Below, one piece after another: positions 47,609 through 51,241 of a stretch of DNA of 64,000 bases. The stretch covers positions 1 to 64,000 of the forward strand of contig WMKJ01000067.1 of assembly GCA_009733715.1 (NCBI GenBank). The letters run 5' to 3'. The position numbers and the translations under genes are program-made. Below the pieces are notes generated by a model that was not told where the DNA came from, made no database searches, and was given only the letters and a program-made list of their open reading frames with translations. Each line of letters starts with the position of its first letter. The first letter of the stretch is position 1. This stretch comes from Herpomyces periplanetae (taxonomy: Eukaryota; Ascomycota; Laboulbeniomycetes; Herpomycetales; Herpomycetaceae).

Positions 47609-48194
47609 GATAAAGTCCCTCGTAAATCAATCTATTATTCTTGTAAGGTCCACTTCGTACACTCTATAAATCAACTACACACAAGGTCTTATTTTGCCTT
47701 GCTAATAACAACGATAAGCTTGCGTGATACTTGCTTGCCTGTTTGCTTGCTCGCTGGATTGTTCAATAGTTCGCTCGTTCGACCTGCCAGGGTCACCGAT
47801 CTGCACAAAGGAGATGTGTAGGCTGGAAAATTATGTACTGTCTGAAAAGAAAAAAGTATACACCTCGTGAAAGAATGTCCTTGTACAATCGGTATTCTTT
47901 GTAAAGTCTATTCTAAAATACATTAAATACCAATTCAAAAATTAGTTCCCACTTGCTAACTCGATGCGTTGTCATAAAACCCTTAAGGCTACCATATTAC
48001 CACTTAAGCTGAGCCGCTTCCGAGCCCGTAATCCGGACACAAGTTCCGTATCGAACTTTTGCCATATCCAGTCACCTGGTATCCCGACTCCGTTCCGAAC
48101 ATATTTCCCTTCTGAAGGGACAATTCGGCTTATTATACTGCGAGCTGCGGGATAAGCTCAAATTATCGGACCACCAGAAAACAAAAACCATCAC
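47609..48194. other. Intergenic, upstream of the unrecognised gene and up to the tRNA
   Basis: No coding feature. Short GCTTGCTTGC-type repeats near 47720-47760. Confidence 0.5.
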
Positions 48195-48298
48195 CGATCA
48201 GCACGGGAGTCGAACCCGCAACCTTTGGTGAGCACAGGCCAACCACTGAAGCGGCCGGCCGGCCGAAAACCAACGCGCTACCATTGCGCCAACCGATC
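48195..48298 (-). tRNA. tRNA-Arg (anticodon UCG) with a 32-nt intron
   Basis: On the minus strand the gene folds as a full cloverleaf. The acceptor stem is GATCGGT with GCTGATC (two G-T pairs), discriminator G. D arm: GCGC-AATGGTA-GCGC. Anticodon stem: TTGGT with ACCAA. T arm: GCGGG-TTCGACT-CCCGT, which also gives the B box. The loop reads TT-TCG-G then C, so the anticodon is TCG (48266-48264), reading CGA arginine codons. An intron at 48231-48262 sits between positions 37 and 38, the canonical site. It begins with a GC-rich CCGGCCGGCC palindrome, which inflates local GC. G37 and discriminator G agree with eukaryotic tRNA-Arg(UCG). Confidence 0.85.
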
Positions 48299-48626
48299 CT
48301 GCACCGGCTCGGATTATGTAGTATATAAGTGACTATGCTATACATACTGTTTCCATCCCCCCACCCAAACCTATTAGAAAAAATTAACCGCAGGATCAAT
48401 TAAGTCTATTCGTAAAAATAATCTTCTATTCATAAAATTAGTACTGCAAAAGTACTTGGAATATGAACTAGACTACATTCACTACGTTTACGAAATTAAG
48501 CAAATAATTGGCAGACCACGCTCACATTTTACCCAAAACTAATCCGGGATAACAAAGCCAAGTGGCAGCTGAAAATACATATACACACCGCGGGATAAGC
48601 TGCTAATAATAAAAAAGAATAAACAT
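48299..48626. other. Short intergenic region, tRNA 5' flank and CPA1 3' flank
   Basis: AT-rich with no gene seen. It supplies the CPA1 transcript end and the upstream flank of the tRNA. Confidence 0.6.
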
Positions 48627-49998
48627 TCAGTGGGATTTTCGTGATCTACGTACGATGTCAATGTACCGATCAAAGAGAAATGCGCTATCCAATGGGCCAC
48701 CCTTGGCTTCAGGGTGGAATTGAGCGGAAAATATGGGACGAGTCTTGTGAATGATTCCCTCATTACTTGAATCATTCAAATTCACGAAGAATTCTAGCCA
48801 ATCGGGTGGTAATGTTCTCGCATCAATCGCATAACCGTGATTCTGTGAAGTTATATGACATTTTCCTGTTGTCATGTCCAGGGCCGGAATATTATGAGCG
48901 CGGTTTCCATACTTCAATTTAATAGATTTAGCGCCCACTGCTAATCCGATCAACTGATGTCCCATACATATCCCCATGATAGGTATATCGTGAGAACTTA
49001 TTAACTTGCGAAGATTAGCCACTGTTTCTTGACAATGAGTTGGATCACCTGGCCCATTGGATATGAATACGCCATCGAATTGATGGGCGACATCCTGAAT
49101 GGGGAAATTATACGGAAATGCCGTTACACTAGCACCTCGACTAACTAAACTGCGTAAAATGTTTTCTTTAACGCCACAGTCGATCAAAGCAATTCGTAAA
49201 TTTCCTACGGGTGAGTTAACATGGTAAGGGGATTTAGTGCTCACCCGTGAAACCAAATTAATGCGCTCGGGATCGATAAACGCTTCGTCTTCGTTAGCAT
49301 CGTATTCTTCGCCAATGGTAATTCTGGCTAACGATGAGCCTTGTGTTCGTAGTATAGTGACAATTTCTCGAGTATCAACGCCGGATATAGCAGGAATACC
49401 CTCGCGTGCACACCATTCACTCAAACTTTCAACAGCTGTCCAATGACTGTGCTTGAGCGAAACGTCTGCTACAACCACACCAGAGGCCTGAATATGAGGT
49501 GATTCAAAGTATCGTAAGAGACCATATTCATCGCGCACTTTTGATGGAACACCGTAATTGCCAATTAAAGGTTGTGTAAACACGAGTATTTGTCCGCGGT
49601 ACGAAGGATCAGTTAACGACTCTGGATAGCCGACTAGTGACGTAGTAAACACTGCCTCTCCTGAAACGTTACACTCTGCACCGAAAGAGTGTCCACTAAA
49701 AACTTCTCCGCTCTGTAGTTATACCGTAGAGTATGAAAGGGTCATGCATGTTAATATAAAAACAAGTATAAAAACTTGGATAAAATTTCCCTGTACCCAC
49801 GAAATACTGTAAGCGTACCTTCATCGTAAAAGTTGCCCGCTTAAAGCAAGGTCGGTTAATTCCGCTATTGCGATCATCCAGTGAAGTATTACGACTGTAG
49901 TCTGGTTTTATTGTGGCTAGACCACGTTTATAACTCCAAATGCGCAATGGAAGCAAGGAAGATAAACGTGCGCCAGTTACAGTTGGTAAGAACCGCAT
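48627..49998 (-). CDS. CPA1: Carbamoyl-phosphate synthase, arginine-specific small subunit
   Basis: Exons 49998-49819 and 49712-48627 join at phase 0 to 421 residues. The first exon carries a basic, Ser/Leu-rich mitochondrial presequence ([20 protein letters not shown], then YKRGLAT). Exon 2 begins [12 protein letters not shown] and has the N-terminal CPSase domain ([37 protein letters not shown]). The class I glutamine amidotransferase domain follows with the nucleophile motif [34 protein letters not shown] and the catalytic [10 protein letters not shown]. It hydrolyses glutamine and feeds ammonia to the large subunit for carbamoyl phosphate, the first step toward citrulline and arginine. 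Its mRNA is preceded by an attenuator-peptide uORF (50504-50130), so translation is probably repressed by arginine. Confidence 0.95.
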
Positions 49999-50129
49999 AA
50001 TGATAAATCTTAAAGCCTATTAGCACAATGGATGTGAAGATTGTAAGATTGGACGTATAATGTACGTACATACGATGCGATTGGTGTGAAGAAGTGCTTG
50101 CTTAATGCACACGAGAAATTGAAAATTCG

Positions 50130-50504
50130 TTAACTATTAGTTGAAGCCCTCCACAAATGATCTAATGGAATATCATTAGTTTCGATGCACTCAAAATTTG
50201 GTTGGGTAAGTTTGTCGACTGTAAGGAAGAAAAATCGTATAAACGAGAATAATATTTAGGGGGGAAGGAAGGGTTTGGTCTAACGGGTAAATACTAACCA
50301 CAAATATAATCCTGTGTAATTAATTCAAAAGTTAGCCAGGACAAACGTCAGGCAAATAGAATGTGGAAAGGGGAAATATCGAGCGCTTTAATGATCCATA
50401 TACATGTTACACGCAAGTGTCATGTAGGGAAAGTAATGCGCACAAATCTATCTACACACTTTACATACCTGAGATGTAAAAACAGACGGGGCAAAACTCC
50501 GCAT
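50130..50504 (-). CDS. Arginine attenuator peptide uORF of CPA1, three exons including a 13-nt microexon
   Basis: Exon 1 (50504-50469) encodes MRSFAPSVFTSQ. The microexon (50311-50299, 13 nt) encodes DYIC plus the first base of the next Asp. Exon 3 (50161-50130) completes DHLWRASTNS and a TAA. The result is a 26-residue peptide of the arginine attenuator type, known from Neurospora arg-2 (PSVFTSQDYLSDHLWRA) and yeast CPA1 (QDYISDHIWK). Only the Ser before the second Asp differs (Cys). Both introns are GT-AG (donors GTATGT, GTTAGT) with CTAAC and CTAAT branch sites near the acceptors. The uORF ends 131 nt before the CPA1 ATG. In known systems the nascent peptide stalls the ribosome when arginine is high and so blocks downstream initiation. 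Without splicing the uORF reads into a stop soon after TSQ. Confidence 0.85.
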
Positions 50505-51241
50505 TTATAAGAGTGTAATGGGTATGTAAACCCTACTTAGTCTTAGTTTAAAGACTTAAACACCAAGCACATGAGCTCGTTGTTGTGATGAAAAATCTCG
50601 ATTAGCGGTACAAGTAAAAGAAAAGAAAGTGTAGATGAATAAAATGCAAATTGGATTATGAGTGCGAGGGAGGATTAGTGGTTAATGAACCTTCCCCACC
50701 GCCACCGCCACCGCCACCTCCCAAAATGTCCGGCCAAAGCCGGCTCGGAGCAACCACGCCGACATGTCACATGGCCTTCGGTAAAATATTAATCCACTCT
50801 GTGGCTATGGACATTTCGGGAGAATTCGAGATGGTGATTTTTGGGACGGTAAATGGGTTAATTTGAGGAACGAAATGTTCATCAACTCTGGAGTTGGTGG
50901 ATTACGCTTAATTTTTACCCATATTGTCAATATAATCACCCGTATATACAAATAACGGGGTTAATTTGAGTACTTCTGGCATATAATTACTATTTACATT
51001 TTGTGTTGGAATGCTAAATAGAACTAATGCACAAACCAGTTGACTTAACTGGATGTTAATAACATTCAATTACAAAAATCATGGATAAGTTTGTATAAGA
51101 GATGGTTAAGTTATCACTAGAAATTAATATGGAAAACACCAGCCATAAACCTAGGATATACAACTTATACCCAAAAGTATATGGACCCACGGTGCAATGA
51201 TATCAGGGGGAATATAGATGTGATATACAGGATTCGATGAA
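50505..51241. other. Intergenic, CPA1 promoter and APP1 3' flank
   Basis: Contains a (CCACCG)n microsatellite at 50696-50722 that makes a poly-Pro false ORF. No other gene is seen. Confidence 0.55.
50696..50722. repeat. (CCACCG)n microsatellite
   Basis: About four CCACCG units followed by CCACCTCCC. Confidence 0.75.

Follow-up and report, generated by a model that had tools for sequence, protein, structure and literature searches.

A CPA1 arginine attenuator peptide with its uORF apparently split over three exons, including a predicted 13-nt microexon

Background

The closest described counterparts of the locus analysed here are the arginine attenuator peptide (AAP) uORFs (Pfam PF08252) of Neurospora crassa arg-2 and Saccharomyces cerevisiae CPA1, which are stand-alone short uORFs ahead of the same downstream gene and share with our locus the core PSVFTSQDY..DHLWRA with its essential Asp; from these the uORF described below would differ by its three predicted exons, one of them a 13-nt microexon, and it has a Cys in place of a core Ser. 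AAP uORFs were reportedly compared by Hood et al. in 2007. AAP uORFs interrupted by introns may already have been noticed in filamentous fungi, and we therefore call only the microexon layout unusual and not the splitting as such. A search of titles and abstract openings, in which few subscription papers were covered, yielded no report of introns or a microexon in an AAP uORF. The sensor family and the system are already known, and it is the exon layout that looks new.

As far as the excerpts of the cited papers go, the change D13N abolishes the arginine response of the AAP, rendering this Asp essential (PMC7969011), the AAP stall also triggers mRNA decay (review; PMC11550727), and the native CPA1 uORF of Cryptococcus shows strong ribosome occupancy, with CPA1 mRNA of C. 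deneoformans being up 5-fold in a upf1 mutant (PMC7049704). For microexons, the nearest parallel is that of Xlr2 in Trichoderma virens, also a filamentous-fungal microexon whose inclusion decides on a functional element; it lies in the coding region of a transcription factor and its inclusion reportedly depends on glucose, whereas the microexon predicted here belongs to a uORF, and the excerpted text states that filamentous fungi had provided no functional microexon prior to the Trichoderma example (PMC11121469). The group 8 small ORF of plants and animals is likewise conserved, serves as a uORF in some lineages and has two introns in its coding sequence, but according to the excerpt it encodes an unrelated CHCH-domain peptide of 51-74 residues that takes no part in amino-acid sensing (PMC2075485).

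Results

The window analysed is a stretch of 64,000 nt. When the minus-strand segments 50504-50469, 50311-50299 and 50161-50130 are joined in a script, they encode the 26-codon product MRSFAPSVFTSQDYICDHLWRASTNS followed by TAA (Table 1), and all coordinates proposed in a first-pass annotation proved exact when the minus strand was read directly. The spliced peptide matches Pfam PF08252 Leader_CPA1 (E 4.3e-12, 45.6 bits against a cut-off of 18.5) with its residues 4-23 on profile positions 3-22 of 23, and the sole match of a PDB search (E up to 10) was 2xl1, 'ARGININE ATTENUATOR PEPTIDE' (E 1.7e-7). It shares the AAP core with the N. crassa peptide (P0124), and in a five-row alignment of the spliced peptide, P0124 and AAP segments excised from three public proteins (one row being a 13-residue fragment) it retains all six invariant columns, including Asp13 and Tyr14. 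Thus the residue whose D13N change kills the arginine response elsewhere is present here. Protein searches for the AAP recovered two proteins among 21 candidates and, in a second search, one among one, the N. crassa peptide. Judged by its sequence, the spliced peptide is the CPA1 AAP, as the first-pass annotation had claimed. That annotation had also seen agreement at almost all conserved positions; the core score is 87 of 94, and the single odd core residue is Cys16, where all four other aligned rows have Ser. We count this Cys against the main reading.

Table 1. Predicted features of the CPA1 leader and coding region in the window
Feature	Position	Strand	Description
uORF exon 1	50469..50504	-	36 nt, ATG CGG ... 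CAG, MRSFAPSVFTSQ; within PF08252 match
Intron 1, predicted	50312..50468	-	157 nt, phase 0, GTATGT...GCTAAC...CAG
Microexon	50299..50311	-	13 nt, GATTATATTTGTG, flanked by ACAG and GTTAGT; predicted
Intron 2, predicted	50162..50298	-	137 nt, phase 1, GTTAGT...ACTAAT...TAG
In-frame stretch retained with near acceptor of intron 2	50162..50218	-	57 nt, 19 residues
uORF exon 3	50130..50161	-	(D)HLWRASTNS, TAA at 50132-50130
Third leader intron, conjectural	50009..50073	-	65 nt, GTATGT...CTAAT...AAG; from sequence only
CPA1 coding exon 1	49819..49998	-	MRFLPTVTG...ATFTMK
CPA1 coding intron	49713..49818	-	106 nt, GTACGC...CAG; exons joined in homologues' register
CPA1 coding exon 2 and stop	48627..49712	-	CPSase small-chain and glutamine amidotransferase domains

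The three-exon match is beyond chance. A dynamic-programming spliced search was run with the N. crassa core of 17 residues and at most two GT-AG introns, each of 40-250 nt. The leader scored 33, 52 and 87 of 94 with no, one and two introns, respectively, and the last value was again 87 when only GTNNGT donors and YAG acceptors were admitted. With two introns, scores elsewhere in the window (minus strand outside 50600-50100 and the whole plus strand) did not exceed 40, and 30 first-order random 64-kb single strands gave a best score of 45 (mean 40.8). Among the 1728 one- and two-intron GT-AG structures that start from the uORF ATG, the best reached 87 of 94 and the next 63. One-intron readings were rejected at best scores of 52 (introns up to 250 nt) and 55 (introns up to 300 nt) versus 87. 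A 10-nt microexon with its donor at 50301 was likewise discarded: joined to the far acceptor of intron 2 it loses the second Asp, as a direct reading of the sequence reveals, and its score with the near acceptor is only 55. Contiguous DYICDHLW was sought across the genome as a degenerate DNA pattern with exact matching, which found no occurrence, and Pfam Leader_CPA1 run over the genome frame by frame (E up to 10) passed no candidate at its first filtering step; the shortness of the models limits both searches. Pattern scans outside this genome returned one stretch in a bacterial contig (genome_contigs), where it is embedded in a long frame of unrelated content, and one in an IMG/VR contig (viral_contigs), where the three forward frames of the 1401 bases covered hold no CPA1-like frame; both were dismissed, and by a rough estimate one match in each collection is the number that chance predicts.

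The codons for Asp-Tyr lie within the 13-nt exon, as originally suggested: GATTATATTTGTG codes for DYIC and supplies one base, the first, to the Asp codon that follows, so that intron 1 cuts at TSQ|DYIC and intron 2 splits this second Asp codon (G|AT). The predicted internal exon is very short and is flanked by canonical splice sites. Both uORF introns carry a GTNNGT donor, a CTAAY branch-like site and a YAG acceptor, the branch-like sites being CTAAC 20 nt before the end of intron 1 and CTAAT 14 nt before the end of intron 2. For comparison, introns of the same genome were inferred from neighbouring exon matches in proteasome, TCP-1 and Ras genes; of 23 segment pairs, 18 above a score cut were kept and five below it dropped, and the kept set includes all three pairs with more than one internal stop in their matched segments. 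The 18 inferred introns measure 61-207 nt, a range that includes both uORF introns, and have GTNNGT donors in 12 cases and TAG, CAG and AAG acceptors in 11, six and one, respectively. With a median of 107.5 nt over these 18, introns appear rather long in this genome. The uORF introns fit this set, although independent evidence comes only from the lengths and, to a lesser degree, from the acceptor letters, since the intron score rewards canonical motifs. GTTAGT, the donor of intron 2, is absent among the 18, which we count against the main reading.

The uORF stop lies 131 nt upstream of the ATG (49998) of CPA1 on the same strand, so that by sequence the uORF, if spliced as predicted, ends ahead of the CPA1 start codon. 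That the downstream gene is CPA1 was correctly recognised from the outset; its product, 421 residues once joined across the coding intron, carries the Pfam domains CPSase_sm_chain and GATase. The large exon is 75-83% identical to the 120 homologues listed (7999 scored), whose named members are mostly Pezizomycotina CPS small chains and of which one carries PF08252. Elsewhere in the genome a single other CPSase small-chain match was found, in a 1885-residue frame that presumably represents the pyrimidine-pathway fusion enzyme. A CPA1 tree of 49 rows was built from the window, P0123 and 47 of the 120 listed homologues. In it the window has a long end branch (1.77) and falls closest to rows from Coniosporium, Venturia and Saccharata, with unsure placement, and the smallest starred set containing it comprises 17 rows, the named members of which we take to be Dothideomycetes or near kin. 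The host is a Pezizomycotina fungus and probably, with the placement being tentative, a fast-evolving relative of Dothideomycetes. Its genome of 13.8 Mb in 220 contigs is small for such a relative and possibly incomplete.

Several further observations concern the gene and its surroundings. CPA1 ends here with ...VRRSRKSH, without the tail SPLLVD(L/I)LxKxRVGV that forms the C-terminus in six of six homologues compared; nor does this tail occur in any of the three frames read on the minus strand over the following ~600 bases (48000-48700 region). In this region, at 48195-48298 on the minus strand, Rfam places a tRNA gene with an apparent intron (50 bits), while ARAGORN in its bacterial setting reported none there. 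Three public proteins (P0025 from Coniosporium apollinis, 577 aa; P0122; P0123) consist of CPA1 joined to a portion of its attenuator leader, and these fusions are probably wrong gene models.

Other elements may contribute to the leader. A 9-codon uORF, MCLVFKSLN (50543-50572, minus strand, C at -3), is situated just upstream of the attenuator uORF and may be part of the leader. Downstream of the attenuator uORF, a frame of 47 codons begins with the ATG at 50071 and overruns the CPA1 start unless this ATG is removed by splicing. Both count against the main reading. The ATG at 50071 lies within a GTATGT, and the conjectural third leader intron (Table 1) may thus remove it. At position -3 there is a T at the start of the attenuator uORF and an A at that of CPA1, a combination that suits leaky scanning.

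Discussion

We consider it very probable that the locus represents a CPA1 AAP uORF whose coding sequence is cut by two introns that are spliced constitutively, and which serves ordinary arginine attenuation. Peptide identity, gene context, splice-site anatomy and the uniqueness of the three-exon solution carry this reading, under which transcription would start upstream of 50504 and both introns would actually be removed. The pre-mRNA would be spliced constitutively to a mature mRNA with the 26-codon uORF, whose start context is weak. When arginine is low, ribosomes would bypass the uORF by scanning or complete it, and CPA1 would be made; when it is high, the nascent AAP would stall the ribosome at the uORF stop and block scanning to CPA1, and the stall may in addition set off nonsense-mediated decay. 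The arginine dependence of the stalling is assumed here from the homologous systems of N. crassa and yeast.

According to the first-pass annotation the regulatory peptide exists only after two correct splices, and the processing variants generated in silico agree with this: retention of intron 1 leads to MRSFAPSVFTSQVCKVCR, retention of intron 2 to MRSFAPSVFTSQDYICG, and skipping of the microexon to a frameshift after TSQ, whereas the near acceptor of intron 2 (CAG ending at 50219; AG at 50220-50219), on which that annotation was silent, gives a 45-residue peptide with VDKLTQPNFECIETNDIPL inserted between DYIC and DHLW. All outcomes other than removal of both introns with inclusion of the microexon thus lose or interrupt the conserved peptide, which could be taken to mean that splicing acts as a second switch. 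Intron retention, microexon skipping or use of the near acceptor would then conditionally produce CPA1 leaders without a working AAP, either uncoupling CPA1 from arginine or constitutively repressing it through short uORFs in the introns, for which ATGs are available at 50466, 50423, 50405, 50399 and 50176; in this scheme, a nascent-peptide arginine sensor would be toggled by a 13-nt Asp-Tyr exon and two competing acceptors of intron 2 that share one frame. A glucose-dependent microexon has been reported in Trichoderma, as far as the excerpted text goes (PMC11121469). However, stops are usual in retained introns, two acceptors share a frame by chance one time in three, and the near acceptor is without a YTRAY branch-like site. 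Regulated splicing of the AAP uORF is an attractive idea, unsupported as it stands, and we regard both the switch and the toggled sensor as improbable.

The acceptors of intron 2 also bear on a simpler deviation from the main reading, namely that the near acceptor is the one mainly used and that the 19-residue insert alters or abolishes regulation. The resulting 80-nt intron would preserve the frame, the insert is free of stops, and the pyrimidine fraction is higher at the near than at the far acceptor (0.76 vs 0.53), which we count against the main reading; yet the 18 inferred introns do without a rich pyrimidine tract as well (mean 0.57), and the insert is absent from the other AAP rows. No YTRAY branch-like site for the near acceptor was found in the stretch searched, while the far acceptor has its CTAAT at 14 nt, from which we infer that the far acceptor is the main one; predominant use of the near acceptor seems very unlikely. 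Least of all do we expect a decayed relic, i.e. a former AAP whose leader is now not transcribed, or not spliced in a way that makes the peptide. The Ser-to-Cys change in the core would be in line with decay, but the core still scores 87 of 94, both introns have plausible splice signals, the CPA1 frame is intact, and a relic would hardly have kept its register across two introns.

With respect to the history of the constitutively spliced uORF that we favour, the recognisable AAP sequence in the Coniosporium gene model begins at DYISDHLWKAS, which hints at a possibly older, shared intron 1. The hint is weak because AG would equally be the end of the CAG codon in an uninterrupted frame. That intron 2 is lineage-specific is a guess.

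Conclusions

The arginine-sensing mechanism as such is unchanged by our finding. Conserved uORFs of this kind are overlooked by contiguous-ORF scans, as illustrated by a Pfam search that remained blank frame by frame and gave 45.6 bits once the exons were joined. An arrest peptide that needs particular residues is seemingly assembled from three exons, and one of these is very short. Provided that splicing follows the prediction, a regulatory uORF has here survived intron gain, a single splicing error would abolish feedback control of arginine synthesis, and the locus would provide a natural test of splicing as a gate for a peptide sensor.
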